A DNA stretch of 64,000 nucleotides from Alteromonas salexigens (GTDB lineage: Bacteria; Pseudomonadota; Gammaproteobacteria; Enterobacterales; Alteromonadaceae): positions 421,960-485,959 of the forward strand of contig NZ_JAOTJC010000006.1 of the NCBI RefSeq assembly GCF_025628895.1, written 5' to 3'. Below, in pieces: positions 1-6,740 of the stretch; positions within the stretch are counted from its first letter, which is position 1, and every line of letters begins with the position of its first letter. The notes under the pieces were generated by a model. It worked only from the letters and a program-made list of their open reading frames with translations. It was not told where the DNA came from and searched no databases. The position numbers and the translations under genes are program-made.

Positions 1-237
1 AATGTCGAACGGCCAGGCCCGATCGATAGAGCCTTCTTCTTCACTGTAAACCGTAAAGGTGATCCCCATAACCTGAATGGCAGTGGTTGCCGCCAGTTTG
101 TAATCGAGCAGCTCTCCGTCGCTCAGTGAACGCAGATATTGGCATAGTGCGTCCGCAGCCGGTCTGGCCTTATTTCTGCCGGCTATCAACTCATCATAAA
201 ATGGCCCCGTTTTATAACTCCCCCATCGTATCGCCAT
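1..237 (-). CDS. Circularly permuted ATP-grasp protein, N-terminal fragment
   Basis: This is the first 79 codons of a gene that runs off the left edge of the window. The translation starts MAIRWGSYKTGPFYDEL and contains GITFTVYSEEEG followed by RAWPFDI, the usual N-terminus of the circularly permuted ATP-grasp family (DUF404/DUF407, COG2308). Members are predicted amidoligases that would join amino acids or peptides using ATP; their substrate is unknown. Known members sit beside alpha-E, transglutaminase-like and Anbu peptidase genes, and here an Anbu gene lies divergently 163 bases away. The start at 237 is preceded by a GGAAGG-like ribosome site; an in-frame ATG at 243 is also possible. Only the N-terminus is visible, so catalytic residues cannot be checked. 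Confidence 0.8.
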   Translation of the reverse strand, partial: MAIRWGSYKTGPFYDELIAGRNKARPAADALCQYLRSLSDGELLDYKLAATTAIQVMGITFTVYSEEEGSIDRAWPFDI

Positions 238-400
238 TACCATGCCCTTCCGTTGCTGACCATTTCTTATACATCTATACGCGGATAATGGGTAAAAAGC
301 AATCAAGGAAATTAGCAACAATCTGCTAAAATTGCGTTGCGCATCAACGTCACAGCCGCCATGCTATATCAGAAGCTGTATTTCACAGGAAAGGCTGATA
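238..400. promoter_or_regulatory. Divergent control region, ATP-grasp / Anbu
   Basis: This 163-base gap separates the divergent ATP-grasp and Anbu genes and must hold both promoters. On the plus strand an extended -10-like element TGCTAAAAT lies at 324-332, inside a small inverted repeat (TTAGCA at 312-317, TGCTAA at 324-329). I see no good -35 match, so this may need an activator or may be wrong. The Anbu ribosome site AGGAAAGG lies near 387-394. Confidence 0.3.
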
Positions 401-1138
401 GTGACGTATTGTTTGGCAATAAAAGTAAATAAAGGCGTGGTTTTCGCCTCTGACTCGCGCACTAACGCGGGCGTGGACTACATTGCGACGTACAGCAAAA
501 TGACGCGCTTTGTTTGGCCTGGAGAGCGGGTAATTGTATTACTTACATCCGGTAGCCTGGCAACATCGCAGGCGGTGGTTAATGCGATCAACCGAGATCT
601 GGAAAATACTGACAGCGAATTCACCTTGCGTAGTGGCAAACATTTGCATCAGGTTGCTGAATATGTCGGAAAGCTCAGTCAGCAAGAGCAACAGCGCCAT
701 GAAAAAGCCATGGAAAAAAGCGGTCACAGCGCTGAATCCAGCTTTATCCTGGGCGGACAAATTGCCGGACGGCCGCCGGAAATTTTCATGATCTATCCGC
801 AGGGCAATTTTGTTTCTACGTCAAATGAAACCCCCTACCTGCAAATAGGCGAAAACAAATATGGCAAGCCGATCTTGGACCGAATTATATCGCCCGCCAC
901 CTCGCTGGAAGACGCTGCGCGCTGTGCTATTGTCTCGCTGGACTCTACTATTCGCAGTAATATTTCAGTGGGTCCGCCTATTGAGCTTGCCATGATCAAT
1001 ACCAATGCGCTGGAAGCGCCGTTTCATATGACCCTGACCATGAACAGCCCTATGTACAAGTCATTGCAAAAACAATGGACACAAGGACTAAAACGCACAT
1101 TTAACCGGCTTCCCCGGTTTGAATGGGAGAAATCTTAG
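401..1138 (+). CDS. Anbu proteasome-type peptidase
   Basis: A 245-residue member of the predicted proteasome-type protease family COG3484, known as Anbu (ancestral beta subunit). Anbu is an N-terminal-nucleophile hydrolase fold related to HslV and 20S beta subunits; its natural substrate is not established. I start it at GTG 401 because AGGAAAGG sits just upstream and translation then begins (M)TYCLAIKVNKGVVFASDS, which puts Thr2 at the mature N-terminus with no propeptide, followed by Asp18 and Lys33 at the spacing of the proteasome Thr1/Asp17/Lys33 triad. Longer in-frame starts upstream would bury the Thr and lack homology. The gene is divergent from an ATP-grasp gene and ends convergently, overlapping the zinc peptidase gene by four bases, matching the recurrent Anbu neighbourhood. 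No ATPase partner gene is present in the window. Confidence 0.88.
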   Translation: MTYCLAIKVNKGVVFASDSRTNAGVDYIATYSKMTRFVWPGERVIVLLTSGSLATSQAVVNAINRDLENTDSEFTLRSGKHLHQVAEYVGKLSQQEQQRHEKAMEKSGHSAESSFILGGQIAGRPPEIFMIYPQGNFVSTSNETPYLQIGENKYGKPILDRIISPATSLEDAARCAIVSLDSTIRSNISVGPPIELAMINTNALEAPFHMTLTMNSPMYKSLQKQWTQGLKRTFNRLPRFEWEKS

Positions 1139-2190
1139 CGGTGCTGTTCAATGAGGTTGTGAATAAAGCGTAGTTTTCCAAGGGCATCGGGTGGAATGGT
1201 AAAAGGATAGGCATCATCTAAGCCCATGCTTCTGTTTAATGCATTTAGCACGGTAGTTAGCCGACACCAGTCAGCGTAAAGTCGGTCGAAATCAATACCA
1301 CGGGTTTTATCAACCGGATCCACAACTTCATTGGTTTCAAGGCTCACGCCATATTGTGCAGCGGTGTCCAGGGTGTCGATGATGTGCAGATAATGGGCCC
1401 AGGATTCAGCCCAGTCTTCCCATGAATGGGCGCTGGCATAGGCGCTGATAAACTGCGACTCCCAGTCCATAGGTGGACCGCTCTCATAGTATCGTTGCAG
1501 CGAGGCCGTGTAATCTTCTCGTTCGTCACCAAACAGCTCGCGATACGTATTCAGATAAACGCTGCCTCTGATAAGCCACTCCCAGTAAAAATGGCCGGAC
1601 TCATGTCTGAAATGCCCGATTAACGTGCGGTAGCGTTCATTCATTTGCTCGCGCATCATGACGCGGGAACTGTCTTCCGCTTCCTTGAGGTTCAGTGTGA
1701 TCATACCGTTACTGTGACCGGTAACAACGGTCGATTTTACTGTGAGTTCCTGGCCATACTCGTCTTCCTCAACGTCCTCCAGAAACTCAAACCGCAGGTT
1801 AGGTTTATTACTACGCTGTTCCCATATTGGTAAGCCCAGAGACATAAGCGTAAACAACAGCCGTCGCTTGGCCTGTTCCATTCGAAACCATAGCTGCATA
1901 TTGTGCGGCCGGGACAAATCGGGGATGGTTTTAGTCAGGGAGCAGGAGTGGCATAGCGACTGTTGGCTACCCTCCTCCACTACCCAGTTGCAGATGTGGT
2001 GATTTAAATAATTAGTACACGGCCAGTAACGTAGCCCGTTAACGTGTGATACCCAGGCACCGTCTGCCGCATTATCAAAAGAAGAAATGGCGACGATTTC
2101 TGGAACAAACCCCAGTGCACGGTTACATGACAGGCACTTGGTGTTGGCAAAGTAAACGGTGTTGCCACATTGACAGGTAAAGTTCTTCAC
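1135..2190 (-). CDS. Zinc-ribbon putative zinc metallopeptidase
   Basis: A 351-residue protein of the putative zinc-binding peptidase family (Peptidase_Mx, formerly DUF2248). An N-terminal zinc ribbon is formed by Cys6/Cys8 and Cys19/Cys22, with further Cys/His pairs near residues 58-83. The metalloprotease motif HESGH is at 196-200, followed by FYWEWLI. No signal peptide is seen, so it should be cytoplasmic. Substrate and biology are unknown; the family recurs in genomes carrying the ATP-grasp/alpha-E/transglutaminase/Anbu group, and its position next to Anbu supports that link. It lies 55 bases downstream of the DUF2256 gene on the same strand and could be read from the photolyase transcript. 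Confidence 0.85.
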   Translation of the reverse strand: MKNFTCQCGNTVYFANTKCLSCNRALGFVPEIVAISSFDNAADGAWVSHVNGLRYWPCTNYLNHHICNWVVEEGSQQSLCHSCSLTKTIPDLSRPHNMQLWFRMEQAKRRLLFTLMSLGLPIWEQRSNKPNLRFEFLEDVEEDEYGQELTVKSTVVTGHSNGMITLNLKEAEDSSRVMMREQMNERYRTLIGHFRHESGHFYWEWLIRGSVYLNTYRELFGDEREDYTASLQRYYESGPPMDWESQFISAYASAHSWEDWAESWAHYLHIIDTLDTAAQYGVSLETNEVVDPVDKTRGIDFDRLYADWCRLTTVLNALNRSMGLDDAYPFTIPPDALGKLRFIHNLIEQHR

Positions 2191-2245: not shown

Positions 2246-2416
2246 CTACAATGACGATTTTGTGGCTGCTGTGGAATGCTCTGCCCGTTTGCGGTTACCT
2301 GCACAGCGTTTGGAGCAGTAACGAACGCTTTCCCAGCTTTTTTCCCATTTCTTACGCCAGCTAAACGGGCGTTGGCAGACGGGGCAGATTTTTTCAGGCA
2401 GGTCAGACTTCTTCAT
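2246..2416 (-). CDS. DUF2256 zinc-ribbon small protein
   Basis: A 56-residue basic protein beginning [18 protein letters not shown], with Cys11/Cys14 and Cys34/Cys38 (YCSKRC) forming a probable single zinc site, and a Trp/Lys-rich middle ([10 protein letters not shown]). This is the DUF2256 family, which has no established function. Its start overlaps the last 14 bases of the iron-sulfur photolyase gene in another frame, so the two are likely translationally coupled. DUF2256 genes are often found beside cryptochrome/photolyase-related genes, suggesting an accessory role such as metal handling or nucleic-acid contact; that role is inference. Confidence 0.85.
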
Positions 2417-3947
2417 CTTTTGACAGCTTTTGCAAAAATATAGCCGCAGATGTGCGGGTGGCGTCTAACTTTTCTTGCGTCATTTTATCGTAGGTACGAT
2501 ACATCATCGCCATACGGTGGTTACTGCGAAGTTTGTCTTCATGTTCGTCTATGAAACGCCAGTACAGATAATTGAATGGGCAGGCATCGTCACCTACCTT
2601 CTTCGTGACTTTATACCCACAGTTTTTACAATAGTCGGACATTTTGTTGATATAACTGCCACTGGAAATATAGGGTTTGCTTGCCAGGTTTCCGCCGTCC
2701 GCAAATAACACCATACCCGCCACATTCGGCAACTCAACCCACTCATAGGCATCGGCATACACCAATAAATACCACTCCTGCACTTCCTGGGGAGACAAAC
2801 CGGTAAGCTGGCAGAAGTTGCCCAGTACCATCAGGCGTTGAATGTGATGAGCATAGGCATTGTCGCGGGTTTCTTTTATACACTGCCTTAGACAATTCAT
2901 GTTGGTTTCGCCGGTCCAGAAAAATGCCGGTAATTTACGATGGTGATTAAAAAAATTCTCTGATTTTAATTGCGGCATAAAGTGCCAGTAGAACCCGCGC
3001 ACAAACTCCCGCCAGCCAAGGACTTGGCGGATAAAGCCTTCTGCAGAATTTAGTGGTGCGCCGTCGTTATAATAAGCATTCTGCGCGCGCTCAATGACCT
3101 CTTTGGGCATCAGTAAACCGCAGTTTATGTAGAACGAAATATGCGAGTGATACAGCCACGGCTTCCCCTCTACCATGGCGTCCTGATATTTGCCGAATGT
3201 CGGCAGTCGTTCATTGATAAAGGTGTCGAGCACCTCTAACGCCTGTTCTCGGGTTACTGCAAAGTAGAAATTTTTCGTATCGCCGAAGTGATCGGGAAAA
3301 TGTTGTTCAACCAGTTCAATAACATCGCGGGTAATAGGATCTGGATTAAACGTACAAGGTGCGGGAACCTGTTCCGAGGCGGGCATGGGCTCACGGTTTT
3401 GCGCATCATAGTTCCACTTCCCGCCCACCGGCGCATCCCCGTCCATAAGAACGTGATAGCGCTTGCGCATTTCACGATAAAAGAATTCCATCCGCAGTTG
3501 CTTGCGGCCTTTTGCCCATTGGGTGAAATCCTCTGGTGTCGAGAAAAAACGCGGATCCTCAAGCACAGTGACGGGGAAACCGAGCTGGTATTCCCACTGA
3601 TACATGCTTTGCTGTAACCGGTACTCGCCCGGCTCGGTTACCATAACCTCGCTAAGCTCACTGTTTTCGCTAAGGGTGTGTTTTACCTGTTGAAGCAAGC
3701 TCCCCTGATTTTCACTGTCGTCGTAGCGACAGTAGACAACCTTAAACCCATCGCTTGTAAGTTGTTCAGCGAAATGTCGCATGGCACTGAATAAAAATGC
3801 AATTTTCAGTTTATGGTGCTTAACGTAAGTCGCTTCTTCACGCACCTCCGCTAACAGAAAAACATCACGAGATTGATCTGCCTCCTCGATGATTGGCAAC
3901 GAAGCGGTAAGTTGGTCACCAAGGATAAGCCGTAAACTTGCGCTCAT
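2403..3947 (-). CDS. Iron-sulfur bacterial cryptochrome/(6-4) photolyase (FeS-BCP)
   Basis: A 514-residue cryptochrome/photolyase-family protein of the deoxyribodipyrimidine photolyase-related group (COG3046). It opens with [10 protein letters not shown], typical of this clade. Four cysteines at 352, 440, 443 and 456 match, with a constant offset of two, the [4Fe-4S] ligands of Agrobacterium PhrB (350, 438, 441, 454). Members repair (6-4) photoproducts with blue light, using FAD and a lumazine-type antenna. The FAD half includes [11 protein letters not shown] and [19 protein letters not shown]. The gene lies 8 bases downstream of the CPD photolyase gene and overlaps DUF2256, so one transcript probably makes repair enzymes for both main UV lesions. 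Substrate choice is assigned from family, not tested here. Confidence 0.93.
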
Positions 3948-3955
3948 GAGTGACG

Positions 3956-5380
3956 CTACCCTTTTATGTCGCTGAATGCATCCAATGCGCGTTGCCGGCT
4001 GGCTTTCAGATCAACCAAAGGCTCAGGATAGTCTTCACCCAGGGTCAGTCCGGCTTTCTTTAGTACTTCATCTGGGGCATCCCAGGGTTTATGAATATAC
4101 TTGTTGGGCAAATCAGAAAGCTCAGGGCAATAAGTTCTGACGTATTCTCCCTGCTTATCAAACTTTTCACCCTGCAGAAGCGGATTAAAAATCCTGAAGA
4201 AGGGGGCTGCGTCTGCGCCGCACCCAGCTACCCATTGCCAGCTGGCGGTATTGCTGGCGATATCTGCATCGACCAGGCAGTCCCAGAACCAACGCTCCCC
4301 CTCATGCCAGCTGATTAGCAGATTTTTAACCAGGAAAGAGCCTACCACCATGCGTACTCTGTTGTGCATATACCCGGTTTGCCATAATTCGCGCATGCCA
4401 GCATCAACAATTGGTATGCCGGTCTGACCCTGTTGCCATGCGCGCAAATCCGCGGCACTTTTACGCCAAGCAAATTTATCAAATTTGGCATTGAAGTTAC
4501 GGTTTGGCAGTGTGGGAAAATGAAAAAGCAGGTAGTAACTGAACTCACGCCAGCCCAGTTCACTTAAGAACGTATCAATGTTTTTGTCTTCGTTATCGCC
4601 AAATTTGTCTTTAATGGCATACCAAATTTGATTGGGCGATATTTCTCCAAAGTGGAGATGGGGAGATAGTTTTGAGGTGCCGGCTGTGGCCGGAAAATCA
4701 CGATCCTCTTTGTAACGACAAGCCGCTTCATCCATAAAGTGGGCCAGGCGGTCTGCAGCACCTTCCTCTCCGGGTGTCCAGCTTTCTGCAATGCCATCAT
4801 CCCAGTTAACTTCTGGTAGCAGTGACAGACGGGCAAGCGAAGTCCCCTTGTCGGGCACGTCTGCGTAAGTGATCCTTGCCGGCGGTGCCTTGGGATAACG
4901 TGGCGGTGCGGCGTTCAGGCAACCTTTACGGTAATAAGGCGTAAATACTTTGTATGCCCCACCGTCCTTTTTGCTGATGGACATAGGCTCCCATAACAGG
5001 CTGCCGTTACAGCTGGTTACTGCATAGCCCGATTCTTTAAGCGATGCCTTGAGCGCTTTGTCTCGGTTTATCTGCCAGGGCGCGTAGCAACGGTTCCAGA
5101 AAATACCGCTTGCTGAAAAGGCTTCCATCAACTCAGGAATGATGATTTCTGGATCACCGGAAAAGAATTGCAAATGGCCATTAAGACGCTCATTCAGACT
5201 GGTCAGAGAATGATGTAACCACCACTTTGACGCGCCTCCGGGCTCACGTCCGTTAGGGACGCTGGTGTCGTAAATGTAGATGGGGATGATCTTGCCTTCA
5301 TCGCAAGCAGCATTAAGCGCAGGGTTGTCTTTTACACGAAGGTCCTGGCGGAACCACATAATGCTTACTGGTACTGACAT
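3956..5380 (-). CDS. phrB: Deoxyribodipyrimidine photolyase, class I CPD type
   Basis: A 474-residue photolyase that splits cyclobutane pyrimidine dimers with light using FADH-. The N-terminal antenna domain begins SVPVSIMWFRQDLRVKDNPAL. The FAD domain shows SKLSPHLHFGE at 236-246, ELGWREFSYYLL near 274, GIPIVDAGMRELWQTGYMHN at 321-340 and DADIASNTASWQWVAG near 371. I start it at ATG 5380 because AAAGGAT lies 5-10 bases upstream and the family N-terminus begins there; a longer open frame upstream crosses the divergent promoter region and has no homology. It is first in the phrB, FeS-BCP, DUF2256 run. The second substrate-independent chromophore (MTHF or a deazaflavin) cannot be read from sequence by eye. 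Confidence 0.95.
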   Translation of the reverse strand: MSVPVSIMWFRQDLRVKDNPALNAACDEGKIIPIYIYDTSVPNGREPGGASKWWLHHSLTSLNERLNGHLQFFSGDPEIIIPELMEAFSASGIFWNRCYAPWQINRDKALKASLKESGYAVTSCNGSLLWEPMSISKKDGGAYKVFTPYYRKGCLNAAPPRYPKAPPARITYADVPDKGTSLARLSLLPEVNWDDGIAESWTPGEEGAADRLAHFMDEAACRYKEDRDFPATAGTSKLSPHLHFGEISPNQIWYAIKDKFGDNEDKNIDTFLSELGWREFSYYLLFHFPTLPNRNFNAKFDKFAWRKSAADLRAWQQGQTGIPIVDAGMRELWQTGYMHNRVRMVVGSFLVKNLLISWHEGERWFWDCLVDADIASNTASWQWVAGCGADAAPFFRIFNPLLQGEKFDKQGEYVRTYCPELSDLPNKYIHKPWDAPDEVLKKAGLTLGEDYPEPLVDLKASRQRALDAFSDIKG

Positions 5381-5474
5381 TTTTATCCTTTTTATAGGTC
5401 TTATGACGTTTTTTTTACGTAAGTGGAGCAGACGAGATCGATTCGTCATCACAAATAACAAAAGAAGACTTCCT
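5381..5474. promoter_or_regulatory. Divergent photolyase/cryptochrome promoter region
   Basis: A 94-base gap between phrB and the DASH cryptochrome gene must hold both promoters. It contains two ACGT tetramers separated by a T tract (GACGTTTTTTTTACGTAA, about 5406-5423). I do not recognise a LexA box or a LitR-type site. Shared or light-linked control is plausible only from the divergent layout. Confidence 0.35.
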
Positions 5475-6740
5475 ATGCCCACACCTTCACGCGGTTTATT
5501 CTGGTTCAGGCACGACTTACGCTTACATGACCAGGTTGCTTTGCTGGCTCTGTCCGAACAGGTCGACACGCTGCTGTGTGTATACCTTTACCCCTCTGCC
5601 CATCAAAGTAAACATTTACCGGACTCCCTGGGTGATGGCAAAAACCGAAAACGTTTTCACGATGAAACCGTTATTGCCTTGAATGAAGCATTACAAGAAG
5701 TGGGACAAACACTGTGCGTGCTACCTGGTAATGAGACACAAAAATTACAAACAATTTGTAAAGACTATGGCATTACCCATATTGGCGTGACTGATTACGG
5801 CGGCTGGAATGAACGACAGGCAGTGCAGGTGCTGGCAGGCTCCCTGCCGGGTGTGAGCTTGGTAACAGGCGAATCCTGTACCTTATTCAATCAAGAATCA
5901 TTGCCCTTTCCCATTGAGGCCATGCCGAATGGCTATACAGGCTTTCGCAAAAAAATAGAGAAACACTGTAAGGTTGAGGCGCCATTAGCGCCCCCTGTAG
6001 CGCTGCCACCACCGCCCGACACTCTGCCGCAGTCAAAAATACCCTCACGGCCGGCCAGTGCCACTGACTTCAAAGGAGGCGAGCAAGCAGGACTAGACCA
6101 CTTGCACCGTTACTTTGCCAATACTGACGCGCCAGCCACGTATAAGGAAACCCGTAACGCTATGGATGGGTGGTGGCCGTCTACCAAGTTTTCGCCCTGG
6201 TTGGCGCTGGGCGCTCTGTCGCCCCGGCTGATTTATAAACACCTGGCAGACTTCGAGCAAAACGTAGTCAGTAACGATTCAACCTACTGGATCTATTTCG
6301 AACTGCTCTGGCGTGAATTCTTCCATTGGTTGCAGAGAAAACACGGAACCCAATTCTTTGCCTATGCCGGCTTTAAAGACAATATTCCTGACAGTCATTA
6401 CAACATTGAAGTGATCAAGCGCTGGTGTTACGGAGAAACCGGTTACGACATTGTAGATGCCTGCATGCGACAACTAAACGCAACGGGCTATATGTCTAAT
6501 CGCGGTCGCCAGTTAGTTGCCAGCTGCCTGGTACACGAACTGAATCAGGACTGGCGTGCCGGAGCGGCATACTTTGAGCGCCAGCTGATTGACTACGATG
6601 TGGGCAGCAACTGGGGGAACTGGCTTTATTTGGCTGGTGTTGGCAGTGATCCGCGCGGGCATCGCAAATTTAACCTGAAAAAACAAACTGACACTTACGA
6701 TCCTGATGGCACATTCCGAAACAAATGGCTGAAGCAATAG
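5475..6740 (+). CDS. DASH family cryptochrome
   Basis: A 421-residue cryptochrome of the DASH clade, flavoproteins that repair CPDs mainly in single-stranded DNA and may also act as light sensors. The antenna half starts GLFWFRHDLRLHDQ. The clade signature YKETRNAMDGWWPSTKFS at 223-240 is followed by LALGALSPR, LLWREFFHWL at 278-287, and the FAD-site block with SNRGRQLVASCL and NWGNWLYLAGVGSDPRG at 379-395. I chose ATG 5475 because the conserved N-terminus starts there; upstream in-frame starts (for example 5403) are possible and the ribosome site is weak (GAAG). It is divergent from phrB and FeS-BCP, so three photolyase/cryptochrome paralogues lie within 4.4 kb. Confidence 0.93.
   Translation: MPTPSRGLFWFRHDLRLHDQVALLALSEQVDTLLCVYLYPSAHQSKHLPDSLGDGKNRKRFHDETVIALNEALQEVGQTLCVLPGNETQKLQTICKDYGITHIGVTDYGGWNERQAVQVLAGSLPGVSLVTGESCTLFNQESLPFPIEAMPNGYTGFRKKIEKHCKVEAPLAPPVALPPPPDTLPQSKIPSRPASATDFKGGEQAGLDHLHRYFANTDAPATYKETRNAMDGWWPSTKFSPWLALGALSPRLIYKHLADFEQNVVSNDSTYWIYFELLWREFFHWLQRKHGTQFFAYAGFKDNIPDSHYNIEVIKRWCYGETGYDIVDACMRQLNATGYMSNRGRQLVASCLVHELNQDWRAGAAYFERQLIDYDVGSNWGNWLYLAGVGSDPRGHRKFNLKKQTDTYDPDGTFRNKWLKQ

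Follow-up and report, generated by a model that had tools for sequence, protein, structure and literature searches.

The Anbu operon and a related locus in Alteromonas salexigens

The Anbu operon comprises genes for an ATP-grasp protein, an Alpha-E protein, a transglutaminase-like protein (TG) and the proteasome-like peptidase Anbu (Iyer, 2009, as cited in PMC5666114 and PMC6376114), and the roles that have been proposed for this system range from protein tagging to the breakdown of tagged or bulk protein. The laboratory strain Pseudomonas putida KT2440 has a canonical operon of this kind, and in P. putida Anbu is reported to be upregulated when nitrogen is limiting. Here we describe a related locus at the start of a 64,000-nucleotide stretch of Alteromonas salexigens DNA (contig NZ_JAOTJC010000006.1, positions 421,960 to 485,959; hereafter the window), in which Anbu adjoins a metallopeptidase of the Peptidase_Mx family (PF15887; hereafter Mx). 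We propose, with a probability slightly above one half (about 0.52), that the locus forms a complete Anbu system, one of a variant type that recurs, with Mx and without TG, in which Mx likely performs TG's step. Another related arrangement, the DUF2126-type system, combines a transglutaminase protein of about 1100 codons, an ATP-grasp~Alpha-E fusion and a small transglutaminase.

The window locus resembles the canonical Anbu operon in clustering an Anbu gene with an intact site, a circularly permuted ATP-grasp gene and an Alpha-E gene, but it has a PF15887/PF10005 metallopeptidase and no TG gene. The gene order also differs, since canonical Anbu is the last gene of a co-directional row (ATP-grasp, Alpha-E, TG, Anbu), whereas here it is divergent from ATP-grasp and convergent with Mx. 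The DUF2126-type system uses the same kinds of enzyme; nevertheless, it is built on the large TG and the fusion protein, whereas in the window's genome ATP-grasp and Alpha-E are separate genes and PF08379 (Bact_transglu_N) has no match. The features of the locus are:

1..237, minus strand: circularly permuted ATP-grasp ligase gene, first 79 codons (PF14403 and PF04174 on the whole protein)
238..400, no strand: intergenic stretch of 163 bases between the divergent ATP-grasp and Anbu starts, with similar spacing in relatives
401..1138, plus strand: Anbu, a proteasome-like N-terminal nucleophile (Ntn) hydrolase (PF00227; structures 5loy/5lox/5nyj/5nyf/5nyw; alignment)
1135..2190, minus strand: predicted zinc-ribbon metallopeptidase Mx (PF10005 at residues 4-93, PF15887 at residues 97-346)
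1591..1605, minus strand: HESGH zinc-binding/catalytic motif, Mx residues 196-200 (H196, E197 and H200 invariant in 75 aligned sequences)
1405..1419, minus strand: EDWAE segment, Mx residues 258-262 (E258, D259 and E262 invariant in 75 aligned sequences)

A four-gene system without TG

An earlier note, made from the sequence alone, had described an Anbu gene with an intact Thr2/Asp18/Lys33 site, a circularly permuted ATP-grasp gene divergent from it over 163 bases, and a HESGH metallopeptidase overlapping it by four bases, and all three descriptions were confirmed; we attribute no part of this arrangement to chance. The Anbu frame (GTG at 401, stop closing at 1138, 245 codons) matches PF00227 in a Pfam profile search (E 2.7e-9) and five solved sequences, all Anbu structures or related 'peptidase' entries (5loy, E 1.3e-76, and 5lox, 5nyj, 5nyf and 5nyw). 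Thr2, Asp18 and Lys33 are all present, corresponding to Thr1/Asp17/Lys32 once the initial Met is removed. The S1-pocket residues Thr20, Thr48, Leu52 and Ser55 agree with the Anbu-1 subtype as described in PMC5666114 and not with the basic Anbu-2 pocket, whereas Tyr30 differs from the Phe30 of Anbu-1, so that four of the five pocket residues are identical; Tyr at this position is also found in 25 of 49 TG-linked Anbu proteins.

The ATP-grasp gene starts with ATG at 237 and is whole in the left flank (L002:16746-18197). The complete protein matches PF14403 (E 3.5e-167) and PF04174 (E 2.6e-143) and, among solved structures, a single chain, 3n6x (E 6.8e-162). The Alpha-E gene that the earlier note expected starts one base past it (L002:15824-16744; PF04168, E 1e-90), and this complete ATP-grasp gene followed by Alpha-E identifies the locus as an Anbu system. 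A second Alpha-E candidate, at C17:12926 (E 5e-5), was discarded, as it sits amid polysaccharide genes in a long open reading frame (ORF) that we read as being of coiled-coil type.

The TG gene, expected likewise, was found neither in the left flank nor, by PF08379, anywhere in the genome, and we therefore file the locus as a variant rather than as the canonical four-gene operon. Only two PF01841 matches occur in the genome, in proteins of other kinds with 687 and 630 codons (presumably TgpA-like and DUF3857-like), and a transglutaminase acting in trans was rejected here on these grounds. The window's edge does cut an Anbu system, as the earlier note held, but what it cuts is a whole four-gene variant rather than a system of which half was still to be found; Alpha-E is present in the flank and the genes co-occur in other genomes. 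None of the four proteins matched the PADLOC defence-protein models at E 0.01, an absence that is no proof.

The Mx gene (GTG at 2190, stop at 1135) meets Anbu tail to tail, with an overlap of four bases (1135-1138). Its product matches PF15887 with 326 bits against a cut-off of 27 (E 1.3e-97) and the PF10005 zinc ribbon with 90 bits against 23.4 (E 1.5e-25), and zinc ribbon and HExxH motif are both present, as in Peptidase_Mx. The EDWAE segment likely holds the third zinc ligand, and HExxH is kept in all 51 linked Mx proteins (a set that includes L258). A PDB search returned no convincing sequence relative (best 9urd, E 0.017), and the N-terminal zinc ribbon sets Mx apart from zincins folded like PPEP and the catalytic domain of lethal factor, to which it is 12-16% identical. 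Single-sequence AlphaFold prediction reached a predicted local distance difference test score of 35, and an alignment-based model worked.

Our literature search, at the level of listings, found no peptidase assay of PF15887 proteins and, with the key 2009 paper not covered, recognised no work joining PF15887/DUF2248 with Anbu, so that we do not claim priority; the main texts of PMC5666114 and PMC6376114 hold no word starting with 'metallo' or 'zinc'.

Distribution and gene order

The genus and phylum samples were those drawn by the tool. Anbu occurs in 23 of 59 genus genomes, and PF15887 in the same 23, always on the same contig and at most 100 bases away. Of the 22 loci besides the window's, 19 were retrieved, and all have the window's layout, Mx-Anbu-ATPgrasp-AlphaE, with the ATP-grasp/Alpha-E pair on the opposite side of Anbu and Mx in tail-to-tail contact with it; no TG was found in 12-14 kb around these loci and the window. 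In three of the genomes (G011, G042 and G056) a second Anbu, 44% identical, immediately adjoins a TG-like gene, the sole PF15887 match of each genome belonging to the first locus, and therefore both kinds exist within one genus. In four genus genomes (L282, L283, L284 and L285) a TG is flanked by the genes that also flank the second Anbu-TG pair in G056 (L286), but that Anbu is missing.

The genus sample also bears on whether the TG could act in trans, which would make this an ordinary Anbu system whose TG gene has been relocated. Some PF08379 match occurs elsewhere in 15 of the 23 genus genomes with Anbu, against 6 of the 36 without it, and one such match is present in G324, where the genes are split. 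On the other hand, PF08379 has no match in eight of the 23, the window's genome included, or in 19 of the 31 genomes that carry an Mx-type locus, and the 13 unlinked genus TGs inspected (that of G057 was left out) have no ATP-grasp, Alpha-E or Anbu neighbour. We regard this explanation as quite unlikely in general and as refuted for the window's genome, unless a TG beyond PF08379 recognition serves there.

Among 398 phylum genomes, Anbu was found in 145, PF15887 in 72, PF08379 in 208 and Alpha-E in 212. By coordinates, Mx lies directly beside Anbu in four of the 145 (G000, which is the window's genome, G051, G159 and G243), and the Mx-Anbu variant is rare overall. A further scan, aimed at Anbu from the window's side of the Anbu tree, yielded 80 named loci, the best of at least 592 matches, which were ranked towards the Anbu of G243 and are thus biased: Mx is present in 32, of which 26 have no TG of any kind and six have one (separate and large in L196, L199 and L201, small in L260 and L270, fragments in L236).

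We then counted neighbours within 3 kb of 146 Anbu genes, taking as small TG an ORF of at most 600 codons and dropping Anbu genes below 180 codons and L258 (the same region as L041): 51 have only Mx, 49 only a small TG, two have both (L260 and L270) and 44 have neither. Without the 28 genes that lie within 3 kb of an end, the 118 complete cases give 40, 41, 1 and 36, respectively. L268 and L259, which duplicate L156 and L165, enter twice into this census, in the count of genes following Alpha-E and in the gap and active-site comparisons given below. The active-site Thr, Asp and Lys occupy the equivalent alignment columns in all 51 Mx-only Anbu genes, and in the 49 TG-only genes Asp and Lys are likewise always present and Thr in 48 (one has Ser). 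The aligned Cys, His and Asp columns are kept in all 44 TGs near Anbu.

In the ordinary arrangement, ATP-grasp > Alpha-E > TG > Anbu run in one direction (e.g., L171-L173, L176-L186 and L188-L192). The annotated loci, window excluded, contain 113 stand-alone Alpha-E genes. In 27 of these cases the first recognised gene to follow on the same strand, at up to 500 bases, is Mx, and in 26 it is TG; where Mx takes this slot Anbu runs towards it, as in G243 (L126) and Gilvimarinus (L193), ordered ATP-grasp > Alpha-E > Mx >< Anbu. Phormidesmis (L263 and L264) has ATP-grasp > Alpha-E > TG >< Anbu, the last two genes overlapping by 16 bases; this TG, confirmed by PF08379 and PF01841, thus has the same place and direction as Mx in G243 and Gilvimarinus.

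Of the 49 convergent Anbu-Mx pairs (e.g., L202, L204 and L214), 37 have overlapping 3' ends. The overlap reaches 110 bases at most, is 44 bases long in eight pairs, and may yield mutually antisense transcripts. Six loci (L156, L159, L160, L161, L163 and L164) are compound: Anbu is flanked on one side by a large transglutaminase gene and on the other by an ATP-grasp~Alpha-E fusion, and a second ATP-grasp/Alpha-E pair adjoins.

Correlated divergence of the four genes

Linked Mx proteins form one clade (43 rows, Shimodaira-Hasegawa-like approximate likelihood ratio test 91, quick tree), apart from DUF2126-linked or lone Mx. Those that follow Alpha-E were rejected as a clade of their own (approximately unbiased test, p 2e-41), the clade existing only with all linked Mx together. 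The 63-row Anbu tree has one side with only TG-linked or lone genes and another in which Mx-linked genes stand together with TG-linked, DUF2126-linked and lone ones; in a 137-row tree, which lacks nine genus rows that do count among the 146, the first side gains a single row with large TG only. The distance matrices of the four proteins correlate with r of 0.89-0.96 over 44 loci with full-length genes (20 from the genus), and none of 2000 permutations was as high. These correlations and the linked-Mx clade together indicate that the four genes tend to travel together.

They also bear on the view that Anbu is a general protease whose neighbours have no joint function. Proteasome inhibitors are bound by Anbu, and protein degradation is favoured as its role, in PMC5666114, and in G324 ATP-grasp, Alpha-E and Mx lie together with Anbu alone 1.3 Mb away (L113 and L153), which shows that Anbu is separable from the other three genes. 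Against this stand the correlated divergence and the presence of Anbu and Mx in the same 23 of 59 genus genomes, and we hold the view to be most unlikely.

A proposed replacement of TG by Mx

We hypothesize that the ATP-grasp/Alpha-E pair would make an amide-linked peptide or peptide-like product, that Mx, as an HExxH zincin, would trim or remove this product, as TG would by means of its Cys-His-Asp site, and that Anbu would cut the product or a tagged protein. The scheme of one builder and two cutters put forward in the earlier note is thus kept for the putative cutters, Anbu and Mx, and amended for the maker, now a pair of proteins.

Replacement of TG by Mx is favoured by their occupying the same slot, in similar numbers, by their near-exclusion in the raw counts and by the scarcity of PF08379 where a genome has an Mx-type locus. 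Among 31 such genomes, many of them metagenome-assembled genomes (MAGs) and only two with completeness given, PF08379 scores above the Pfam cut-off in seven and gives any match in 12, whereas in the phylum sample 134 of the remaining 141 genomes with Anbu have some match (Fisher p 6e-12 for any match, a value that ignores kinship and incomplete MAGs).

Several observations weigh against replacement. After correction for ancestry only five independent pairs are left (p 1) and the exclusion between Mx and TG is lost; 44 of the 146 Anbu genes have neither partner, 16 of these having a large TG; two loci (L260 and L270) have both; Mx without Anbu adjoins DUF2126-type systems, which carry transglutaminase domains, in 9 of 80 Mx rows; and PF08379 genes elsewhere are, as given above, commoner in genus genomes with Anbu than in those without. 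The same observations, except the last, could be explained if Mx were an additional peptidase of independent function that came to accompany the ATP-grasp/Alpha-E pair while TG was lost for unrelated reasons, the two not being equivalent and TG not always being needed; G088 and G340, which have Anbu, ATP-grasp and Alpha-E but no PF08379 or PF15887 match, also agree with this. Unrelated loss would not, nevertheless, put Mx in TG's position after Alpha-E about equally often, nor does it fit the scarcity of PF08379 in Mx-type genomes, and this explanation seems to us possible but doubtful. Weighing the points on both sides, we put a swap of TG for Mx at about one half.

The locus is, in any case, real and represents a variant, found repeatedly, of a system already known. 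Within the reach of our literature search the variant itself is new, and we infer its function. With two unrelated folds in one slot, hydrolysis is most likely what both have in common and, if a zincin is able to replace TG, the ordinary operon's TG-like protein is probably an enzyme that hydrolyses amides and not one that cross-links proteins; a hydrolytic TG is probably the better bet. Tentatively, at rather less than even odds, Mx and TG could be interchangeable cutters of one product, and the Anbu operon a system without a cross-linker, consisting of an ATP-grasp/Alpha-E peptide maker and two hydrolases, the second slot being filled by a cysteine or a zinc enzyme. If TG has naturally been exchanged for a zinc peptidase, this would inform on the chemistry without any known substrate, and would mean that the Anbu system needs at TG's place a cutting enzyme and not a cross-linking one. 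As a metal-dependent enzyme, Mx would give a further means of tracking down the product, and the swap is directly testable by complementation.

Intergenic stretch and neighbouring genes

The divergent gap between ATP-grasp and Anbu measures 149-181 bases in 20 of 22 loci (the window, 19 genus loci, L122 and L254) and 255 and 335 bases in the other two, the starts having been assigned from a sequence motif, without individual checks. A scan of positions 150-1300 for sigma-70-type promoters gave no site against 2.0 expected in shuffled sequence, and a common promoter in the 163 bases was discarded for want of a sigma-70-like match; joint regulation from this stretch, as suggested in the earlier note, is possible. 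An ATCTAA block followed by an A-rich stretch, seen at 238-400 and in relatives, is seemingly common to many genus intergenic stretches and may be part of the ATP-grasp promoter.

Beyond Alpha-E, a stretch of about 660 bases in which no ORF reaches 120 codons precedes a membrane-protein-like gene, presumably PerM-like. A common fifth gene was sought and rejected: in 33 other Mx-Anbu loci the groups common to at least five loci (8, 5 and 5 loci) differ from the photolyase relatives of the genus loci, and no group is common to at least seven of the 49 TG-Anbu loci. On the other side of the locus, a 56-codon cysteine-containing ORF (2246-2416) lies between Mx and three photolyase/cryptochrome-type genes in a row, all within 2246-6740 (PF04244 at 2403-3947; PF00875/PF03441 at 3956-5380 and at about 5463-6740), and photolyase relatives are found near Anbu in 15 of 19 and 13 of 19 genus loci.
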